Part shown: one piece after another, positions 10,040 to 31,755 of the stretch
Numbering within the stretch: position 1 is the stretch's first letter
Layout: every line of letters starts with the position of its first letter
IMG/VR virus record: IMGVR_UViG_3300034160_000082
Span: 1-31,933 of that record
Length of the DNA stretch: 31,933 nt
Source of the DNA: a virus
Reading direction: 5' to 3' (one strand)
Notes under the pieces: generated by a model
What the model was told of the DNA's origin: nothing
What the model saw: only the letters and a program-made list of their open reading frames with translations
Database searches by the model: none
Translations under genes and position numbers: made by a program

Positions 10040-10500
10040 TAGCGTCTCGTATATTGGAGCCGAAGTTCCTGCACCCAGGCACGACCCCGCGGAGAATCAT
10101 CCAGCACATCAAAGTTGTAGCGGCTTTGCGATTGCTGCGTGAGCTGATTGCGATATTGTTCTGGCACATTGCGATCACCACCAACATGGCGTACCGCACT
10201 AGGCCGCGCCTTCATGAGCTGCGCAACGTGATATCGTTTTACTTGCGTAGGATATCCAGGAATCAGCACTACACGATCATCATTGATTGACAAAGAAACT
10301 TGCGGTTCACCTGCAGTATCGGGCAGTGGCTGGAGCACAACCGTAACAAATTCTGCAAGAAACGCTTGTTCCGATATCAACGCCTTGTAATCAACACCAG
10401 CAGGAATCTCGTCAATGAGTTCGTTAGGATTAAGCTCAATGACTGGACCTGGCGTATCGTCCGCCTCAACGCCTTTACGAATAATGACAGGAGGATTCAT
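10039..10500 (-). CDS. Putative virion/head completion protein (153 aa)
   Basis: I chose ATG at 10500 because the earlier in-frame ATG at 10530 lies within a strong stem-loop and has no ribosome binding site. 153 residues. The N-terminus is Pro-rich, followed by helical and mixed parts (VDYKALISEQAFLAEFVTVV) and an Arg/Gln-rich C-terminus (YRNQLTQQSQSRYNFDVLDD). It is directly coupled to the adaptor-like gene by a one-base overlap. No motif is recognised. A role in head completion is suggested only by place in the operon. Confidence 0.65.
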   Translation of the reverse strand: MNPPVIIRKGVEADDTPGPVIELNPNELIDEIPAGVDYKALISEQAFLAEFVTVVLQPLPDTAGEPQVSLSINDDRVVLIPGYPTQVKRYHVAQLMKARPSAVRHVGGDRNVPEQYRNQLTQQSQSRYNFDVLDDSPRGRAWVQELRLQYTRR

Positions 10501-10512
10501 CTTATAGTTCCC

Positions 10513-10528
10513 GGGGCCTTGCGGCCCC
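10513..10528 (-). other. RNA hairpin with GCAA (GNRA) tetraloop
   Basis: On the minus (mRNA) strand the sequence is GGGGCC-GCAA-GGCCCC, a six-pair GC stem closed by a GNRA tetraloop. It sits between the stop of the 144-aa gene and the ATG at 10500. There is no T-run after it, so a plain intrinsic terminator is unlikely. It could separate expression of upstream capsid genes from downstream genes or protect an mRNA 3' end. Confidence 0.55.
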
Positions 10529-10535
10529 ATCAGGA

Positions 10536-10970
10536 TCAGCGAGTGATCTCGATGACGATTTCGTCGTTGTCAGTGATTGGAGCACAAGCTGAGACATCGA
10601 AGTTCAGCTTACCTTCAGCCCAAGAAACGCCAGCTGAGGCAACCGCAACAACGGTCTTATCACCTGCGGCAACAGCTGTCCAACCTGACTTGACGAATGC
10701 TGCGCCGGTAGTGGTAGTAGTGCCGCCAACAGTCTTGCTCTTGACGCCGTTAGCGAGCCACCAGAGACCACTGGTGCCATCCGTCATGTTGAAAACTTCG
10801 ACCTTGCCTGGTACAAAGCTGATACCGTTGGAGGCATCCAGATAGAAATCCGCAGCGGTGTAGGTACCCGTAATATGATAACGCAACGGCTGACTGCCAG
10901 CCGGAATCAGGTTTTCACTGATTCGCGCCACGACCATACCGCTAACAGCGGAAGCAGCAACGTATGCCAT
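10536..10970 (-). CDS. Putative virion protein (144 aa)
   Basis: ATG at 10970 with a GGAGT ribosome binding site seven bases upstream. 144 residues, Ala/Ser/Thr/Gly-rich beta pattern: LRYHITGTYTAADFYLDASN, then SGLWWLANGVKSKTVGG and a Thr run (TTTTT-like). A compact all-beta protein of this size directly downstream of the capsid gene could be a head decoration or fibre protein. No family is recognised. It starts four bases after the 183-aa gene. Confidence 0.7.
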   Translation of the reverse strand: MAYVAASAVSGMVVARISENLIPAGSQPLRYHITGTYTAADFYLDASNGISFVPGKVEVFNMTDGTSGLWWLANGVKSKTVGGTTTTTGAAFVKSGWTAVAAGDKTVVAVASAGVSWAEGKLNFDVSACAPITDNDEIVIEITR

Positions 10971-10973
10971 GAT

Positions 10974-11525
10974 TTACTCCGTGAGAAAGTTAGCAGCGGA
11001 AATGGGGTAGTACGCAACGGATGCGCAATCTGACGCGGCAGTCAAGTCATCAGTTCCGGCAGTCCATTTGGTGTCAGCCTTAGCACCGACCACAATGATG
11101 CCAATAATGACGTTGGATGCAGTGGGCGCAACCGCTCGTGCTGCGATCTCTGCCGCCGCTGCAGACGTGTAGTTTTGATCCGCGGCAACCTGCTTGAAGG
11201 TGATTGTGCCGGCAGCTACGATCTGAGCCACAAAGCCACCATAGAAGGTACCGGTTGCTCCTGCATTGTTAATGGTACCTGTCAGCCCCAGCGCCGTACC
11301 GGCCGCTACTGCGGCCTTAGCATAGGGCATTCCTGAGATGCGGAACGAGAATGCAGTCGTGGCTACGTTTTCAGGAGTAGTCCCCGTGCTGAGAGTCGTA
11401 GCACGAATGATTGACGTGCCCTTAAGGGCTGCAAGCTCCAATCGAAATGCTTCAAGCACGGTACCGAGCGCTCTACGAGACGCTGGGTCTCGCATCCCAC
11501 GAACACCATCTTTGAGAGATGCCAT
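10974..11525 (-). CDS. Putative head-associated virion protein (183 aa)
   Basis: ATG at 11525 preceded by AAGGAG at ideal distance. 183 residues. A charged helical N-terminus (LKDGVRGMRDPASRRALGTV) leads into a low-complexity Ala/Thr/Gly/Val beta region (IINNAGATG-like phrases, IVAAGTITFKQVAADQNYTS). It is the first gene after the major capsid gene, where decoration or cement proteins are often found. This is inference from position and composition, and no domain is recognised. Confidence 0.7.
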   Translation of the reverse strand: MASLKDGVRGMRDPASRRALGTVLEAFRLELAALKGTSIIRATTLSTGTTPENVATTAFSFRISGMPYAKAAVAAGTALGLTGTINNAGATGTFYGGFVAQIVAAGTITFKQVAADQNYTSAAAAEIAARAVAPTASNVIIGIIVVGAKADTKWTAGTDDLTAASDCASVAYYPISAANFLTE

Positions 11526-11536
11526 TGTGGTACTCC

Positions 11537-12595
11537 TTACAGTTCCGTCACGCCGACTTCGATCTCTGCCATCCAGTCCTGGTTGGTGATCTCAGCCGCA
11601 TGGAACGTGCCTGCCCAGACGTAGCCGCGCTGGCCACCAGGATCAGACTTGGACTTGACCGTGTGTGGAATGTGATTGGCGTCGATGGAGCTCAGGCCAC
11701 GCAGGGCAAGCTGTCGGAATGCGTTTTGGCCCAGCACGATCATCGGATACACGTCGATGTTGGTACTGTTATCGGCCTTGAGCCCAGTAGCGCCAACAGC
11801 CGCGCCACCTCCAGGATAGTAGGTAAGCTCTGCCGCAAGGATGAACCGAAATCCATAGGCCGCACCGATCTCGCCTGGAGCGATGATGTTTGCCGCGCCG
11901 TATTCTTCAATGCCCTTGAAGTCTGGCAACTCACGAATGTCGTGCTCCAAATCCGTGTGGCAATAGACCGGATAAGAGGACTGAATCGGGTAAGTTGCGT
12001 AGCCAGGACCGCCACTGAGCGCCTTGTTCTGTGGGCGACTGTAGCGACGCTTGAGCCCGCGGCGCACCTTTTCCAATATGGTCTTGGTGATGGTGCCGTT
12101 GACCGTGCCAGTCGTGGTACCAGTACCACCAAAGAACGCATTGGTCGCGGCCTTGAGTTTGCCGTAGTTGTACAGCTCGCGCACCAGCGTGATGCGCTTA
12201 CCCGCGAACTCAACTTCCTGCGCTGGAATGTCGTCCTCGAAGAAGATCGCTGTCTCATTCGTGTATGAATACAGGCAATCGAACTGGTACGGCGTGGCCG
12301 TGATAATCGTGGAGGTAACGCTTTCCGCGCCTCGCGTCACACCCTCAGCCGTGCGGTGATAATCGACGATGGCCTGGTCCTTGCCGGGAGCAACCCACTG
12401 GTTGTCAACATCGGTGCCGCCATATCCAGACGGAATGATGAATCGCTTCCACTTGAAAACTTTTCCGCTCTGCGTTGGCATCGGATCGGTTTCACCTGCC
12501 TTCGACAGGTTCTCCTCGAACATCGCGGCTTCGAGAATCTTCCCCTTGACGATACCGACTCGCGCGGTATCACTTGCGAGCATATGGCCGGCCAT
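11537..12595 (-). CDS. Major capsid protein, N4-gp56 family-like
   Basis: ATG at 12595 with a GGGAGATAA ribosome binding site. 352 residues. The sequence follows the N4-gp56 capsid pattern: ARVGIVKGKILEAAMFEENL near the start, then KVFKWKRFIIPSGYGGTD, then a region about 80-160 with EGVTRGAESVTSTIITATPY, FEDDIPAQEVEFAGKRI and LVRELYNYGKLKAATNAFF. The C-terminal half contains VYCHTDLEHDIRELPDFKGI and a Gly-rich loop. It builds the icosahedral HK97-fold shell. Scaffold and portal genes lie directly upstream, as expected. The length is slightly below the 380-400 aa common in the family. Confidence 0.9.
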   Translation of the reverse strand: MAGHMLASDTARVGIVKGKILEAAMFEENLSKAGETDPMPTQSGKVFKWKRFIIPSGYGGTDVDNQWVAPGKDQAIVDYHRTAEGVTRGAESVTSTIITATPYQFDCLYSYTNETAIFFEDDIPAQEVEFAGKRITLVRELYNYGKLKAATNAFFGGTGTTTGTVNGTITKTILEKVRRGLKRRYSRPQNKALSGGPGYATYPIQSSYPVYCHTDLEHDIRELPDFKGIEEYGAANIIAPGEIGAAYGFRFILAAELTYYPGGGAAVGATGLKADNSTNIDVYPMIVLGQNAFRQLALRGLSSIDANHIPHTVKSKSDPGGQRGYVWAGTFHAAEITNQDWMAEIEVGVTEL

Positions 12596-20777: not shown

Positions 20778-20806
20778 TTGACACCCCATCGGGCATGGCC
20801 TATAGT
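20778..20806 (+). promoter_or_regulatory. Early promoter P1 (sigma-70 type)
   Basis: TTGACA at 20778-20783 and TATAGT at 20801-20806 with an optimal 17-bp spacer. A small inverted repeat (GCGAA...TTCGC, 20756-20771) lies directly upstream of the -35 box. It is oriented towards the first early genes. Confidence 0.75.
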
Positions 20807-20867
20807 TTCACCATCAGATCACGGAACGAAATGGCGATCTAGGGACGGAAGAATCTAGCACGGAGGC

Positions 20868-20895
20868 TTGACAACCCAACCAAATAGGCTAAGAT
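20868..20895 (+). promoter_or_regulatory. Early promoter P2 (sigma-70 type)
   Basis: TTGACA at 20868-20873 and TAAGAT at 20890-20895, spacer 16. It shares the phrase CTTGACAACCC with P3. It lies about 30 bases upstream of the 20-aa reading frame. Confidence 0.6.
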
Positions 20896-20926
20896 GTAAC
20901 CAACAGAAACAAACCGAGAAAACAAA

Positions 20927-20989
20927 ATGCTCCTGATAGCACTACTGATAGGTGTGATTGCAATCATAACCGAGTGCCTTTGCGACTAA
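20927..20989 (+). CDS. Possible 20-aa hydrophobic peptide
   Basis: ATG at 20927 with CCGAGAAAA upstream, TAA at 20987-20989. The peptide reads MLLIALLIGVIAIITECLCD, a single hydrophobic helix followed by an acidic, Cys-containing end. It is the first frame after promoters P1 and P2 and lies 14 bases before the next gene. It could be a tiny membrane peptide, a leader peptide or chance. Confidence 0.4.
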   Translation: MLLIALLIGVIAIITECLCD

Positions 20990-21003
20990 CAAAGCGAGGT
21001 TTT

Positions 21004-21213
21004 ATGTACATACTCCGAATTGAACACCACATGGAACAATGGGATCGCCCCTTCGGCTATCGTGGGATGCCCATTGATGAGGCAATAAAGGAAGCCGAAA
21101 GCATCTTACGGCAATCCCGTATAGCTCGAAACGCTTCTGGTGCCAGGTTGTTTATGGCCATCGGAGAACAAGTAGCTTGTTGGGACTTAGGATTGTCCAC
21201 TACCTGCGCGTAG
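21004..21213 (+). CDS. Small early protein (69 aa)
   Basis: I chose ATG at 21004 because GCGAGG lies at the right distance upstream; an in-frame ATG 30 bases earlier has none. 69 residues starting MYILRIEHHMEQWDRPFGYR. The layout is beta-turn-helix: IEHHMEQWDRPFGYRGMPID, then EAIKEAESILRQSRI, then GARLFMAIGEQVACWDLG. This resembles small alpha/beta early phage proteins, but no family is recognised. It is the first convincing early gene, served by P1/P2, and is followed by a hairpin at 21222-21243. Confidence 0.65.
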   Translation: MYILRIEHHMEQWDRPFGYRGMPIDEAIKEAESILRQSRIARNASGARLFMAIGEQVACWDLGLSTTCA

Positions 21214-21221
21214 GCCCCATC

Positions 21222-21243
21222 GGCAAGGCCCTTAGGCTTTGCC
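21222..21243 (+). other. Intergenic RNA hairpin
   Basis: GGCAAGGCC-CTTA-GGCTTTGCC forms a nine-pair stem with one G-U pair and a four-base loop, nine bases after the first early gene. There is no T-run after it. It could be a factor-dependent terminator, a processing site or an mRNA end stabiliser. Confidence 0.55.
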
Positions 21244-21277
21244 AATGAGACTTGGAAAGGATCAGAACGAAAGATGC

Positions 21278-21305
21278 TTGACAACCCGCTAGGATGCGCT
21301 AGACT
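21278..21305 (+). promoter_or_regulatory. Early promoter P3 (sigma-70 type)
   Basis: TTGACA at 21278-21283 and TAGACT at 21300-21305, spacer 16. The upstream phrase GATGCTTGACAACCC matches the P2 context. Transcription from here would begin with the boxA-like leader. Confidence 0.6.
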
Positions 21306-21371
21306 GACAAGCAAGGATTAGATGAACGGACTCACAATGGGCAACCGATCATTAGGCTGCAAAAGTGGAAC

Positions 21372-21427
21372 GCGGGCAATCCTTTGAACCCGCAACGAGA
21401 CTGATCTTTAACAATTCGGTTGGGCAA
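21372..21427 (+). promoter_or_regulatory. rRNA-like antitermination leader (boxB-boxA-boxC-like)
   Basis: A stem GCGGG/CCCGC (21372-21376 and 21389-21393) is followed by TGATCTTTAACAATT at 21402-21416, then GGTTGGGCA at 21418-21426. The E. coli rRNA-operon boxA is TGCTCTTTAACAATT from memory, so 14 of 15 bases match. The order stem, boxA, GTGGG-like box is that of rRNA leaders rather than lambda nut sites. It lies about 90 bases after the P3 -10 box and before any gene. Role in NusB/NusE-dependent antitermination is inferred. Confidence 0.65.
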
Positions 21428-21482
21428 AAGGCGCAAGCCTACCAGGACCTACCTTAGCCTGGTGCAATAAGACCCAGGGTGA

Positions 21483-21528
21483 GCTAGTGGGCGCCTACCC
21501 ACTAGCAGTGTCATGGAGCGGTAGCTCC
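21483..21528 (+). other. Two hairpins before the 84-aa gene
   Basis: GCTAGTGGG and CCCACTAGC (21483-21491, 21498-21506) form a nine-pair stem with a CGCCTA loop. GGAGC-GGTA-GCTCC (21515-21528) forms a second, short stem directly before the ribosome binding site AAGGA. A weaker ACCAGG/CCTGGT pair lies at 21441-21463. No T-run follows. Confidence 0.55.
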
Positions 21529-21539
21529 CGGATGAAGGA

Positions 21540-21794
21540 ATGACCAATGCGCAGGAACGCGCCAGGCTTGTTATCCGTTGCAACCAAACGGAGAACATGA
21601 TGAGAACATTTTACGAGCGTGCCAGACGAGAAAACTGGCATGATGCCTGCAAGTGCGTGCAAGCCTCTAAGTTTGGGGAATACCGCGAAAGCGAAATACC
21701 CGAACCAACTGGAGAACCCATGAATGAGTATGCGGGTTATTTGATCCAGTGGGATTGGCACAACAGCGTCTTTATAATCTGGAAACCGCTCTAG
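21540..21794 (+). CDS. Small early protein (84 aa)
   Basis: ATG at 21540 directly after GATGAAGGA, a close ribosome binding site. 84 residues. A basic helical N-terminus with two Cys (MTNAQERARLVIRCNQTENM), further Cys (DACKCVQASKFGEYRESEIP) and a beta-like end with aromatic residues (YAGYLIQWDWHNSVFIIW). No family is recognised. It is the first gene after the boxA-like leader. Confidence 0.65.
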   Translation: MTNAQERARLVIRCNQTENMMRTFYERARRENWHDACKCVQASKFGEYRESEIPEPTGEPMNEYAGYLIQWDWHNSVFIIWKPL

Positions 21795-21800
21795 TCTGCG

Positions 21801-21922
21801 TCCCTTGCATGGTTGCAAGGGATAACAAGCCTCGAAGGGGTCAAGGTGCGTCAACCACACAAAGGCCCCACCCTTGCAGGCAAGTAGCCAGCACACAAGC
21901 AGGACTTAGGTTGCTGCTTGTG
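21801..21922 (+). other. Two intergenic RNA hairpins
   Basis: TCCCTTGCA-TGGT-TGCAAGGGA (21801-21822) is a nine-pair stem with a four-base loop. CACAAGCAG (21894-21902) pairs with CTGCTTGTG (21914-21922) across an 11-base loop. A CGGAGACGCAGA leader precedes the next ATG at 21959. No T-runs follow either stem. Confidence 0.6.
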
Positions 21923-21958
21923 GCTGCCCACTTTCGAGTAGCATAACGGAGACGCAGA

Positions 21959-22156
21959 ATGAACGAAATCCAAGTTAAGAGCCCACTTGACCAGGCTACC
22001 GAAGATTACTGGCAAGCTGCTCTCGCGGTTAAGGATGCCAAACGTGAGCTACTTCGCACGGCAACTGAGGAGCTCGGCGAGCTTGCCCGAGACATGACAC
22101 TGGGCGAGATTGCACGAGTGTTGCGTAGGCGTCGCAATCGACTCCAAGGCCGTTAG
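21959..22156 (+). CDS. Small helical early protein (65 aa)
   Basis: ATG at 21959 preceded by the CGGAGACGCAGA leader. 65 residues, MNEIQVKSPLDQATEDYWQA, then a continuous helix (ALAVKDAKRELLRTATEELG) and a basic C-terminus (IARVLRRRRNRLQGR) able to bind nucleic acid. The end, DMTLGEIARVLRRRRNRL, could be a weak helix-turn-helix. The MNEI start is shared with the next gene. No family is recognised. Confidence 0.65.
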   Translation: MNEIQVKSPLDQATEDYWQAALAVKDAKRELLRTATEELGELARDMTLGEIARVLRRRRNRLQGR

Positions 22157-22164
22157 GCAACCCC

Positions 22165-22191
22165 GCTAAGGCATTCCACGAGTGCCTTAGC
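22165..22191 (+). other. Intergenic RNA hairpin with TTCCACGAG loop
   Basis: GCTAAGGCA (22165-22173) pairs with TGCCTTAGC (22183-22191). The loop TTCCACGAG differs by one base from the loop of the hairpin at 27958-27982, whose stem is different. CTGGGccGCACTACC and a CGGAGACACAA leader follow. Confidence 0.65.
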
Positions 22192-22229
22192 TGGGCCGCA
22201 CTACCGTGGCTTAAAACGGAGACACAACG

Positions 22230-22814
22230 ATGAACGAAATCACCCTTTCCCTGCCAATCAGTATCCAAGTTGGTGGACCTGCTGGTCACGAGCGCAACAT
22301 GAGTACCGCGCTTTGGAACGCAGACTTCCTGCTGGAAATGGCCCTGCACGGCATTAAGCAGCGCCGCACTGACAAATTCAGCGTGCAGAAAGCCACCAAA
22401 GGGCTCGACGACGCCATCAAAGGGCTGCTGGAGCTTGACGCACGCCTGATTGCAGGTGAGATTCCCGCAGGTGGTGGTGGTGGTGGCCCCAGGCAATCGC
22501 CGGAGACGAAAGGCTGGCTGGCCTACTTCAAGAGTGCGAAGCACCAGGAGGGCTCAAAGGCCGTTACGAGCGACACGCTCGAGCGCGCCAAGGACAGCTA
22601 TGTCAGGACGGGGCTGCTGCGCAGCCTCAAAGACAAGGCGCTTGAGCAAGCAAAGCAGGACATTCGCCCCTTCATGGCGAAGTATCGCCAGGTGATTCTG
22701 GATCAGGCTGAAAAGCGCCGGGACAAAGGCCAGCCCGGCTGGTTCATCCAGAAGGAACTGGAGAGCCGCAACGTGACTGAAATTGCCGAGTTCGACCTCG
22801 ACATTAAGGCGTAG
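22230..22814 (+). CDS. Early protein with Gly6 linker (194 aa)
   Basis: ATG at 22230 after the AACGGAGACACAACG leader. 194 residues in two parts. Residues 1-80 begin ITLSLPISIQVGG and continue with helices (ALWNADFLLEMALHGIKQRR). A six-Gly linker (PAGGGGGGP) follows. The C-terminal 110 residues are Lys/Arg/Glu-rich helices (SDTLERAKDSYVRTGLLRSL, KALEQAKQDIRPFMAKYRQV). The basic second half suggests nucleic-acid or protein binding. No named family is recognised. It is one of the larger early proteins and more GC-rich than its neighbours. Confidence 0.7.
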   Translation: MNEITLSLPISIQVGGPAGHERNMSTALWNADFLLEMALHGIKQRRTDKFSVQKATKGLDDAIKGLLELDARLIAGEIPAGGGGGGPRQSPETKGWLAYFKSAKHQEGSKAVTSDTLERAKDSYVRTGLLRSLKDKALEQAKQDIRPFMAKYRQVILDQAEKRRDKGQPGWFIQKELESRNVTEIAEFDLDIKA

Positions 22815-22839
22815 CAGCCAGCTTCAAGTAGGCAAACCA

Positions 22840-22860
22840 CAGAGCCCTGCTAGGGCTCTG
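22840..22860 (+). other. Intergenic RNA hairpin
   Basis: CAGAGCCCT-GCT-AGGGCTCTG is a perfect nine-pair stem with a three-base loop, 26 bases after the 194-aa gene. It is followed by a small GCTTGC...GCAAG stem and the GAGGAGACACAAC leader. The stem AGAGCCCT also occurs in the repeated hairpins at 24.9 and 25.4 kb. Confidence 0.65.
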
Positions 22861-22891
22861 GAGCTTGCACATTCGCAAGAGGAGACACAAC

Positions 22892-23074
22892 ATGACGATA
22901 ATCCGTAACACCCACACTCAGAACATCTTTGCAGGTTTTACTCCAAATGGAAAGACACGATGGGTTATGTATGAAGATGGCATGGTAGCCGTTATTTTCA
23001 TAACCAAAGAACAAGCCAACGAGGTTGCTCGAGACTTGCGAAACCACGGCTTTGTTGTGGAGGTGATATCGTGA
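22892..23074 (+). CDS. Small early protein (60 aa)
   Basis: ATG at 22892 after GAGGAGACACAAC. 60 residues, MTIIRNTHTQNIFAGFTPNG, then KTRWVMYEDGMVAVIFITKE and a helix (QANEVARDLRNHGFVVEVIS). It is a compact alternating beta/alpha protein. Its base composition is more AT-rich than that of the preceding gene. The stop overlaps the next GTG start (GTGA). No family is recognised. Confidence 0.65.
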   Translation: MTIIRNTHTQNIFAGFTPNGKTRWVMYEDGMVAVIFITKEQANEVARDLRNHGFVVEVIS

Positions 23075-23223
23075 ACGAAACCCAGCAACTCAACGACACA
23101 ATCGCCCAAGCAACCTGGCTCGCAGCCGAATCCGGCTACGCAGACATTGAGGAACTTTGGCTCTCTGATCCAGACCTGTTTGTGAGCTTGGCGCAAGAAT
23201 GGCGCCAGGAGCAATCCCACTAG
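23071..23223 (+). CDS. Small acidic early protein (50 aa)
   Basis: GTG at 23071 overlaps the previous stop (GTGA) and has a perfect GGAGGTGAT ribosome binding site five bases upstream. 50 residues to the TAG at 23221: MNETQQLNDTIAQATWLAAE, then SGYADIEELWLSDPDLFVSL. It is helical and acidic, with no basic residues except two Arg near the end. It is too short for a common gene-length cutoff, but the start signal and coupling are strong. Function unknown. Confidence 0.65.
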   Translation: MNETQQLNDTIAQATWLAAESGYADIEELWLSDPDLFVSLAQEWRQEQSH

Positions 23224-23231
23224 GCTCTTCC

Positions 23232-23257
23232 GCAACACCATTTCCAAATGGTGTTGC
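23232..23257 (+). other. Strong 12-bp hairpin after the 50-aa gene
   Basis: GCAACACCATTT pairs fully with AAATGGTGTTGC; as RNA the top pairs would open to a loop. It is followed by TGGGtaGCACTACC, matching the sequence after the 22165 hairpin. No T-run follows. Confidence 0.65.
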
Positions 23258-23282
23258 TGGGTAGCACTACCTGAGCCAAACA

Positions 23283-23314
23283 CCCCACCCAGATAATAAC
23301 TAATCTGGGTGGGG
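23283..23314. repeat. 12-bp inverted repeat CCCCACCCAGAT
   Basis: CCCCACCCAGAT (23283-23294) and ATCTGGGTGGGG (23303-23314) are perfect complements with an AATAACTA loop. The core CCCACCCAG recurs at 23529 and, inverted, at 23610. Confidence 0.75.
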
Positions 23315-23465
23315 CGTACACACCCCCCGTTACCAACCAACTTCAGGGGGGGACCCAGCAGTAGTAAAATACACACATATATATATATTTATATCTCTAT
23401 AGGGGTGCTTTTACGCTACATCCGGGACTCCCCCTCAAATCGGTTGGTAACGGGACCTGTGTACG
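23315..23465. repeat. 151-nt nested imperfect inverted repeat (ncRNA or cruciform candidate)
   Basis: From outside in, these segments are complementary: CGTACACA with TGTGTACG (23315/23458), CCCGTTACCAACC with GGTTGGTAACGGG (23326/23442), a G7 run with the CTCCCCC stretch (23346/23428), CCC with GGG (23354/23424), GTAG with CTAC (23361/23416) and TAAAA with TTTTA (23365/23409). The apex is an AT-rich loop with an (AT) run. About 40 base pairs can form in order without rearrangement. It lacks an open frame. Confidence 0.7.
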
Positions 23466-23634
23466 ACCCTAAAGTCAATAAAAACAATAACTTAACCTAA
23501 ACAGCCATAACACACGTGTAATAATACACCCACCCAGCCGCACAACTAACCCCCCAAAATTCGAGCAACAGCACCCATTAATTTAACTTACTGACAATAA
23601 TAATCCTGACTGGGTGGGGCACGCCTAATATGGG

Positions 23635-23663
23635 TTGACAACCCATAATACCTATGTTATACT
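23635..23663 (+). promoter_or_regulatory. Early promoter P4 with overlapping operator-like palindrome
   Basis: TTGACA at 23635-23640 and TATACT at 23658-23663 with 17-bp spacing, the best promoter in the early half with P1. The palindrome ATGGGTT-GAC-AACCCAT (23630-23646) covers the -35 box. The next gene encodes a ribbon-helix-helix protein, so autorepression is plausible. Confidence 0.75.
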
Positions 23664-24681: not shown

Positions 24682-24704
24682 CCAGACCAGAGCCCTGCGT
24701 GCAG
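24682..24704 (+). repeat. Intergenic direct repeat, degenerate copy
   Basis: CCAGACCAGAGCCCTGCGTG followed by CAG matches the copies at 24930 and 25354. Here the right half of the stem has changed (AGAGAGA instead of AGGGCTC), so the hairpin is lost. The AGGAGACACA leader follows. Confidence 0.7.
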
Positions 24705-24724
24705 AGAGAACCCCAGGAGACACA

Positions 24725-24929: not shown

Positions 24930-24957
24930 CCAGACCAGAGCCCTGCGTGCAGGGCTC
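24930..24957 (+). repeat. Intergenic direct repeat with hairpin
   Basis: CCAGACCAGAGCCCTGCGTG starts at 24930. GAGCCCTG-CGTG-CAGGGCTC (24938-24957) forms an eight-pair stem. GCGCCTGGG after it can pair with the leading CCAG. The next gene starts after ACCGGAGACGACC. Confidence 0.75.
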
Positions 24958-24995
24958 GCGCCTGGGCACGAAGTGCTCAACAACCGGAGACGACC

Positions 24996-25353: not shown

Positions 25354-25381
25354 CCAGACCAGAGCCCTGCGTGCAGGGCTC
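25354..25381 (+). repeat. Intergenic direct repeat with hairpin
   Basis: Second intact copy of CCAGACCAGAGCCCTGCGTG. The hairpin GAGCCCTG-CGTG-CAGGGCTC spans 25362-25381, and GCGCCTGGGAGC follows. The match to the 24930 copy is exact over at least 38 bases including GCGCCTGGG. Confidence 0.75.
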
Positions 25382-25416
25382 GCGCCTGGGAGCAATCCCG
25401 ACAACCGGAGACGACA

Positions 25417-27726: not shown

Positions 27727-27948
27727 ATGATTATCCAAATCGTCCACACTACTGCCCACGACAAATCAGGCGCTCCTTACCTAACTGGCGGCCGCGAGAT
27801 TCGTCGCAGCGTTCGCCATGTAGGACACTCTGTGCCATTTGCTGGCCACATCTACGCAAAGGTCTGGGACTGGGCTGGTGAGCCTTGGATCGCCAAACAG
27901 GTGGCTGGAGGCTACCAGTCCACGTCGATGACCGCCTTGCCCGCGTAG
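27727..27948 (+). CDS. Small early protein (73 aa)
   Basis: ATG at 27727 with CCCGGAGCCAAGC upstream. 73 residues: MIIQIVHTTAHDKSGAPYLT, GGREIRRSVRHVGHSVPFAG, then HIYAKVWDWAGEPWIAKQVA. His- and Arg-rich with mixed alpha/beta pattern. No family is recognised. It is the first gene downstream of P5. Confidence 0.65.
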   Translation: MIIQIVHTTAHDKSGAPYLTGGREIRRSVRHVGHSVPFAGHIYAKVWDWAGEPWIAKQVAGGYQSTSMTALPA

Positions 27949-27957
27949 CCAACTCCG

Positions 27958-27982
27958 CAGACCCATTCCGCGAGTGGGTCTG
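27958..27982 (+). other. Intergenic RNA hairpin with TTCCGCGAG loop
   Basis: CAGACCCA (27958-27965) pairs with TGGGTCTG (27975-27982). The loop TTCCGCGAG is one base different from that of the hairpin at 22165-22191, with entirely different stem bases. GTGGGCCACACTAC follows, close to the post-hairpin sequence at 22.2 and 23.3 kb. Confidence 0.65.
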
Positions 27983-28026
27983 GTGGGCCACACTACAACT
28001 GTATGGGGCATCACAGAGCTGTATAA

Positions 28027-28042
28027 GGTTCCACGTGAAACA
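28027..28042. promoter_or_regulatory. parS-like ParB-binding site
   Basis: GGTTCCACGTGAAACA matches the widely conserved bacterial parS consensus TGTTnCACGTGAAACA at 14 of 15 fixed positions; only the first T differs. It is in the gap between the 73-aa and 72-aa genes. parS is the binding site of ParB in chromosome and plasmid partition. No parA or parB gene is visible in the window, so host ParB or an unseen phage ParB would be the partner. Binding is not shown. Confidence 0.55.
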
Positions 28043-28061
28043 TAGACCCTCGGAGACACTC

Positions 28062-28280
28062 ATGACCATCCGCACCCCATCTCACCTCCGTCTCAACTTC
28101 CCACCCAACACCACATTGGAGCGCATCGCGGCCGAGCTTCACGCACTTGGCTACATCATCTCCGCGCGGCGCAACCGCGACGGCAGTCATGATGTGATCG
28201 AGCGGCCAAGTGCACGAGTGCAAGCCGCAGCAGCGCAGCAGCGCAGCGCAACGCCTGTTCTGGAAATCGAAGGACTTTAA
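28062..28280 (+). CDS. Small early protein (72 aa)
   Basis: ATG at 28062 after CTCGGAGACACTC. 72 residues: MTIRTPSHLRLNFPPNTTLE, RIAAELHALGYIISARRNRD, then GSHDVIERPSARVQAAAAQQ. The middle reads as a helix and a beta pair (ALGYIISARRNRDGSHDV), as in small DNA-binding or winged proteins. The end has an Ala/Gln-rich low-complexity run. No family is recognised. Confidence 0.65.
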   Translation: MTIRTPSHLRLNFPPNTTLERIAAELHALGYIISARRNRDGSHDVIERPSARVQAAAAQQRSATPVLEIEGL

Positions 28281-29123: not shown

Positions 29124-29151
29124 CCAGACCAGAGCAGCCCGCGGGCTGCTC
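29124..29151 (+). repeat. Fourth CCAGACCAGAG repeat copy with altered hairpin
   Basis: CCAGACCAGAG at 29124 matches the copies at 24682, 24930 and 25354. It leads into the perfect 20-bp palindrome GAGCAGCCCGCGGGCTGCTC at 29132-29151. The stem sequence differs from the other copies, yet both sides changed so that pairing is kept. Confidence 0.7.
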
Positions 29152-29178
29152 GAGCCTGTGCCCATCAGGGGAGTTAAT

Positions 29179-30273: not shown

Positions 30274-31755
30274 ATGCCCAACTCAACCCCCCAGCAACTC
30301 GCGTGCTATTCTCACGCCACCGACCCCACCTCTGGCAGCCTCGCAATCCGCGCTCGCGCCGGCACAGGCAAAACCTCAACCCTTCGTGCTCTCGCGGCCA
30401 AGCTTCCAGGCACCGGCCTTGCGACCAGCTTCTCCCGCAGCACAGTTGCTGACCTTAAGGCAGCAATGCCCTCGAATTGGGAGGCAGTAGGAATGCACGC
30501 GCTCGGTCTTCGAGGCATCAAAACTCGTCTGCCCCAGTGCACCATCGACACCAACGGCAACGCGCTCTACTCCTTTATCAAGGAGCAACTCAAGTCCGAG
30601 GACGAAGATTGGAAACTTCTCCCCGACATCCGTGCGCTCGTCGAAAAAGCCGCGATCTGCGGATTGGTCCCCAACAACGAGCGCAGCCTTCTGCAAGACA
30701 TCCCCGAAGTCTGGGAAGAGATTGCCGACCTCTACGACATTGAGACCAATCCGGTCGTGCTTGACCTGGCCCGCCAAGCGCTGATCTACAGCAACGAGCA
30801 GGCCCTCCAGGGCAACATCATGTTCATGCACATGCTGACGCTGCCATTGTTCTTTGGCTTCCCGCTCGCGCAGTATCCGAAGATCATCGTTGACGAGGCT
30901 CAGGATCTCAACATCCTCCAGCACATGCTTGTTGCAAAGGCGCTCCGACATAATGGACGCATCTTCGCGGCAGGCGATGATCGCCAGGCAATCTACGCCT
31001 TTGCGGGTGCGCGGACCAACAGCTTTGATGAGCTGTCTACTCGATTCAGTGCCACCGGGCTGCCCCTCACAGTAAGCTGGCGCTGTGCCCAGGAGGTCAT
31101 CCGCGAGGCCCAGCAATGGGTGCCCGACATCGAATGGGCTCCCGGAGCCATCGAGGGCAGTGTTGTTCCAGTTCAACACACTGAACTGGAGGACCTCCCC
31201 CGCATCATCCTCTGTCGTAACAATGCTCCTCTTACGCGGCTCGCTATGCGCCTCTTTGTGGCAGGCCATTCTGTCGAGTGCGCAGGCCGCGACATAGGTG
31301 CCGGCCTCAAGTCCACCATGACTCGGGTCGCAGCTACGAAAGACTCCGAGCATATGCCCATCGCGGAATTTCTTTCACGCCTCCAACGCTGGGCCGCCCG
31401 CGAGATCGAACGTCGCCCCGGTCGCAAGCCGCGCGTGCACGATAAGGTAGAGGCACTTACCGCGCTAGCCGAGACCCATACAACTGTTGGCGCTGTCCGC
31501 AAACACATCGACAACCTGTTTGTGGACCAAGACGGAGACAAGCGCACTAAGCAGCCTCCAGAATTTGTGCTATCTACAGTGCATAAGGCTAAGGGTCGAG
31601 AATGGTCTCGAGTTGGTTTTCTTGACGCGCACCTGCTGCCGAGCAAGTACGCGACAACGCCTGAGCAAATCCAACAGGAGGCGAATGCGAGCTACGTCGC
31701 CGTAACACGAGCAAAGCAAGAGCTTGTGTATTTAGACTCTAACATGATTCTGTGA
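30274..31755 (+). CDS. UvrD/Rep-like SF1 DNA helicase (493 aa)
   Basis: ATG at 30274 with TAGGAGCC upstream. 493 residues with a full SF1A motif set: Walker A ARAGTGKTST (27-36), Walker B IIVDEAQD (204-211), motif III GDDRQAIYAFAGA (234-246), motif IV SWRC (268-271), motif V STVHKAKGREW (434-444) and motif VI YVAVTRAKQEL (474-484). It unwinds DNA with ATP, so it should act in phage replication or recombination. It is shorter than UvrD or Rep (about 700 aa), so the 1B/2B inserts must be reduced. Host-like helicases of this short type occur in other phages. Confidence 0.9.
   Translation: MPNSTPQQLACYSHATDPTSGSLAIRARAGTGKTSTLRALAAKLPGTGLATSFSRSTVADLKAAMPSNWEAVGMHALGLRGIKTRLPQCTIDTNGNALYSFIKEQLKSEDEDWKLLPDIRALVEKAAICGLVPNNERSLLQDIPEVWEEIADLYDIETNPVVLDLARQALIYSNEQALQGNIMFMHMLTLPLFFGFPLAQYPKIIVDEAQDLNILQHMLVAKALRHNGRIFAAGDDRQAIYAFAGARTNSFDELSTRFSATGLPLTVSWRCAQEVIREAQQWVPDIEWAPGAIEGSVVPVQHTELEDLPRIILCRNNAPLTRLAMRLFVAGHSVECAGRDIGAGLKSTMTRVAATKDSEHMPIAEFLSRLQRWAAREIERRPGRKPRVHDKVEALTALAETHTTVGAVRKHIDNLFVDQDGDKRTKQPPEFVLSTVHKAKGREWSRVGFLDAHLLPSKYATTPEQIQQEANASYVAVTRAKQELVYLDSNMIL

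Follow-up and report, generated by a model that had tools for sequence, protein, structure and literature searches.

The DNA analysed here, referred to as the window, is a linear IMG/VR virus record whose 31,933 bases represent a fragment of a phage genome. Genes for a terminase, a portal protein (PHROG head-tail adaptor) and a major head protein, located on the minus strand in the left half, identify it as a tailed phage, and many small rightward ORFs extend from about 20 kb up to a UvrD-like DNA helicase gene (30274..31755, plus strand), which closes the rightward region and was used for placing this region in relatives. Four strong sigma-70-type promoter matches, with a perfect TTGACA and 10-11 of 12 positions matched, open the rightward region at 20778-20806, 20868-20895, 21278-21305 and 23635-23663 and are likely early promoters. 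A 37-bp hairpin-forming repeat, CCAGACCAGAGCCCTGCGTGCAGGGCTCGCGCCTGGG, lies ahead of small early ORFs at 24682-24718, 24930-24966, 25354-25390 and 29124-29160; two of the copies are identical and the repeat is without T runs. A long inverted repeat with 54-nt arms (78% complementary, 51 nt spacer) occupies 23311-23469, in a stretch without clear genes.

Within the rightward region, a solitary site resembling parS, the centromere-like sequence of bacterial chromosomes, is present. This parS-like site, GGTTCCACGTGAAACA, is located at 28027..28042 on the plus strand and differs from the consensus TGTTNCACGTGAAACA by one mismatch, at position 1. Its 14-bp core, GTTCCACGTGAAAC (28028-28041, plus strand), matches the parS core GTTNCACGTGNAAC with zero mismatches. 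Elsewhere in the window the best match to the core has 2 mismatches, and no other place comes within 3 mismatches of TGTTNCACGTGAAACA. The description given in the initial annotation, a near-perfect parS that departs from the consensus only at the first base, is thereby confirmed in its exact position and its perfect core. A chance match had also been put at far fewer than one per hundred windows; 0.0021 matches with at most one mismatch on either strand are expected per window from base composition, a value that holds for one motif and leaves out the number of motifs and windows inspected, so the estimate is right for this one motif.

The site begins 78 bp past the end of an orphan ORF of 73 aa (27727..27948, plus strand), whose frame scores positive for codon usage over most of its length, and ends 19 bp before the ATG of a second orphan ORF of 72 aa (28062..28280, plus strand), where the codon score is positive from about 28050. 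The 72-aa ORF has no PHROG or Pfam match and no IMG/VR relative. A good ribosome-binding site, cGGAGacactcATG, was read from the sequence at 28050..28061 (plus strand) ahead of this ATG, and its GGAGACA motif recurs in the region ahead of other start codons (families D9, D10, D15 and D16). Codon-usage scores are negative in all three forward frames between 27990 and 28050, in agreement with the earlier placement of the site in a gap between genes; the frame upstream of the ATG at 28062 is open back to 27885, and a longer form of the ORF with a non-ATG start is possible.

Other functions for this gap were considered. A hairpin (AGACCCA...TGGGTCT; 27961..27982, plus strand) that separates the 73-aa ORF from the site is unconvincing as a terminator, being without a T run, and a scan for promoters and terminators found no good one at the site. 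The RNA fold of the gap around the site was no more stable than those of shuffled sequences and the Rfam search gave no match. A replication-origin signal at the site was rejected because GC-skew showed no switch at 28 kb.

On bacterial chromosomes, the exact 16-mer gave 40 matches in 369 gammaproteobacterial genomes as compared to 1 for the reversed control. Both flanks were fetched for 20 of these copies and in all 20 a further parS-like core with no more than one mismatch was present within 1.4 kb, mostly 600-640 bp off. Given the matches relative to the control and the neighbouring parS cores, the exact 16-mer GGTTCCACGTGAAACA is, by its sequence and company, a genuine variant of chromosomal parS in Gammaproteobacteria. 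Its departure from the consensus falls on the least constrained base of parS, position 1, where A, C and G variants were seen adjoining canonical parS in 21 genomes of bacteria in which distant relatives of the terminase occur; the outer base is also written as variable for Caulobacter and Burkholderia (review PMC7022226).

The site therefore shares with the chromosomal parS of ParABS (canonical TGTTTCACGTGAAACA) a perfect 14-bp core and, as the exact 16-mer, a place beside other gammaproteobacterial parS, but here it is on a phage genome, single and with no parB found nearby. It has the conserved inner core of the 16-bp palindrome that defines chromosomal-type parS, with the outer position 1 differing, and is not clustered near the oriC of a ParABS-bearing replicon. 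As a single site on a phage fragment in which no ParB_N domain was found, it is named here a host-type parS on a phage and not a chromosomal parS locus.

The exact 16-mer was also scanned for in 2.9 million IMG/VR viral contigs and was present in at least 119 of them. Three control 16-mers were far less frequent: the reversed sequence was found in 4 contigs, a control with the CACGTG core kept and the arms shuffled in 1, and a control with the original arms around a CAGCTG core in 15, representing 8 distinct contexts. Among the parS matches listed there were 101 distinct flank contexts, which group into 52 lineages by a loose criterion and into 75 at 40% protein identity, and the G+C of the matching contigs listed ranged from 0.33 to 0.72. 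If the controls measure the chance rate, approximately 90% or more of the 101 listed contexts would exceed chance, an estimate that rests on the three control 16-mers and at least 119 contigs and is carried over to the window with caution. A BLAST search of phages with the short, N-padded 16-mer as query returned nothing for target and control alike and was hence uninformative.

The placement of the matches was then compared with random positions in the same contigs, and intergenic placement was roughly twice as frequent for the matches. Among the matches listed, 24 of the 101 sites were between genes (10.7 expected, binomial P ~1e-4), and with a codon-based gene model the count was 43 of 101 (24.6 expected, P ~4e-5). 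Fifty long matching records among the matches listed were also inspected: 44 carried a single site, none had a match to the reversed control, and 43 were without a ParB_N domain. At least one of the 7 records with ParB_N is a methyltransferase-ParB fusion (L069). The recurrence of the 16-mer in unrelated phages suggests that some phages may recruit host ParB.

Two other sources of this enrichment were rejected. Some of the matching viral contigs may be host DNA; bacterial contamination as the general cause is disfavoured because phage structural or packaging genes were present in most of the sampled contigs and most of the viral records, unlike the chromosomal copies, are without a second parS. 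When one long ORF per locus was sampled among the matches listed, 27 of 40 were head, tail or packaging proteins according to PHROGs, indicating that most matching contigs are real phages. Coding constraint was discarded since the matches in long ORFs occupy several frames and cover the whole of the G+C range above, and since the most codon-like control (core CAGCTG, reading VPAET or FQLK) yielded only its 8 contexts.

Five related records, with terminases 47-64% identical to that of the window, contain neither the parS site nor the parS core, and the genes flanking the site have no counterparts in them. The initial annotation had named absence from close relatives as a sign against its reading; the site is indeed absent, from relatives that are no closer than this TerL identity and that are also without the flanking genes. 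No IMG/VR relatives were found via the helicase and no near DNA match to 20-31.9 kb was found in INPHARED. Five contigs with the extended 19-mer GGTTCCACGTGAAACATAG were rejected as homologues of the site region, as they form one unrelated family with identical flanks.

The absence from the relatives found is what would be expected if the 16-mer had drifted by chance into an unconserved region of small genes and had no role, and this is the main rival to a host-type parS. The single copy, the orphan neighbours and the many motifs and windows that the first inspection covered also speak for it. The counts for the three controls, set against 101 listed contexts of which about nine-tenths or more are in excess, speak against it, and we consider chance an unlikely explanation of the site.

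The initial annotation had also offered a phage ParB encoded elsewhere and a plasmid-like prophage state. Since the window covers a linear 31.9-kb fragment and the largest relative reaches 58.9 kb, a phage-encoded partition system could be located on the rest of the genome, and phages with their own ParABS do exist, e.g. RedRock (PMC7157519). The parS of the RedRock type, however, consists of arrays of 8-bp repeats and not of the chromosomal palindrome (PMC7157519). The check for parB and further parS proposed earlier, carried out here on the 31.9-kb fragment, found no ParB_N and no second site, hence neither a cluster nor an array; ParB_N was also absent from the five related records of 25-59 kb and, as given above, from 43 of the other 50 long matching records among the matches listed. 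The phage-ParB proposal thus lost ground and a phage-plasmid partition site is quite improbable. The remaining alternative, an operator that resembles parS and through which a transcription regulator of the phage or the host would control the ORF at 28062, would suit a nearly palindromic element 19 bp upstream of the ATG and a TATAAG at 28022-28027 that resembles a -10 hexamer, but is very improbable given that no promoter-like match at the site passes the scan (the four with 10-11/12 matches lie at 20778-23663), that the window holds no second copy, and that it leaves unexplained why dozens of unrelated phages, and parS clusters on chromosomes, have this 16-mer.

ParB dimers bind parS, close on CTP, slide off to cover kilobases of DNA and load SMC. 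By this mechanism, a single parS on phage DNA that is being replicated would attract host ParB. We consider it probable that the site is a solitary host-type parS carried by the phage, which would load host ParB. This reading is based on sequence, on identity with chromosomal parS and on over-representation in unrelated phages; from these we infer a canonical ParB in the host of this phage, its binding and loading at the site and a benefit to the phage. The window having a single site and the flanking genes being orphan are points against it. The proposal in the initial annotation that the site could attract host ParB is supported as far as the site is a real chromosomal parS variant enriched in phages, and the matches being mostly single and without a ParB domain fits such attraction; the binding itself is predicted. 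With this, the original observation is stronger than the sequence alone could show, and the host-ParB interpretation is favoured over the phage-ParB one.

Under the host-ParB interpretation, the chromosomal ParB of the host would recognise the 14-bp core in the infected cell, be loaded on it as a CTP-dependent clamp and then slide over the adjoining phage DNA. The phage genome would thereby be marked with host ParB and its followers, with ParA-driven positioning and SMC loading as possible outcomes, and the multiplying phage copies would draw ParB from the host origin. By analogy with SGI1 and with ectopic parS in Caulobacter, the phage might be better positioned or more stable in slow infections, or might remove ParB from the host origin, at a possible cost in silencing of its own genes. 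We consider co-option or titration of host ParB the most likely benefit.

The closest logical precedent, taken as an analogy, is the mobile element SGI1, whose parS-like sites exploit the ParABS of a helper plasmid so that SGI1 gains stability and displaces that plasmid (PMC10954446). The likeness between the SGI1 DR motifs with the IncC plasmid ParABS and the present site would lie in a mobile element that has the cis site only and depends on the ParAB of another replicon (PMC10954446), and the window, in whose 31.9 kb the site is present and no ParB_N was seen, may follow this logic of an element with parS only. The two differ in that SGI1 has a plasmid partner, two copies and demonstrated binding and stabilisation (PMC10954446), whereas here a single copy would have the ParB of the host chromosome as its predicted partner. 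The extrachromosomal mycobacteriophage prophages RedRock and Miko likewise carry a phage-borne centromere-like site, but have genes for ParA and ParB, and their sites are arrays of short direct repeats (PMC7157519), none of which was seen in the window. Ectopic parS in Caulobacter can lower host fitness depending on its place (PMC5815017); extra parS at unusual places can thus be harmful to the host, which a phage could exploit, although these were engineered chromosome insertions and not phage (PMC5815017).

Distant relatives of the terminase are mostly found in Pseudomonadota. In some of the bacteria that hold them (Enterobacter, Proteus, Citrobacter and Lelliottia) no chromosomal parS was found, and the site would be idle if the host is an enterobacterium that lacks chromosomal ParABS.

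Few DNA motifs are, like parS, common to bacterial phyla, and for this reason one short site on a phage could engage the segregation machinery of many hosts. The open-access literature yielded the SGI1 exploitation and phages with their own ParABS, and no solitary host-type parS in phages. Whether a solitary host-type parS, one per phage, is under selection in many unrelated tailed phages, where it would recruit host ParB and with it SMC, is in our judgement evenly balanced. The same even balance applies to parS serving these phages as a positioning signal, decoy or organiser, with the window as one example. If many phages do carry parS, host chromosome segregation would be a direct target or tool of phages.

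Several of the matching viral contigs have arrangements of their own. Three exact copies of the 16-mer form a 29-bp tandem array in L087 (12306-12379), and a phage record of 17.9 kb, L078, has five parS-like sites (10298-11899) and no ParB_N. In L136 (~5511) the 16-mer precedes the gene for a phage groEL-type chaperonin by 26 bp. The 16-mer overlaps the end of the large terminase gene in L040 (1424-1439) and L047 (3359-3374), and lies 56, 69 and 143 bp upstream of this gene in L076 (9183-9198), L002 (1927-1942) and L049 (3883-3898), respectively. These five sites adjoin two TerL families, PHROG 38 and 2, and a possible link between the 16-mer and packaging is worth a test.
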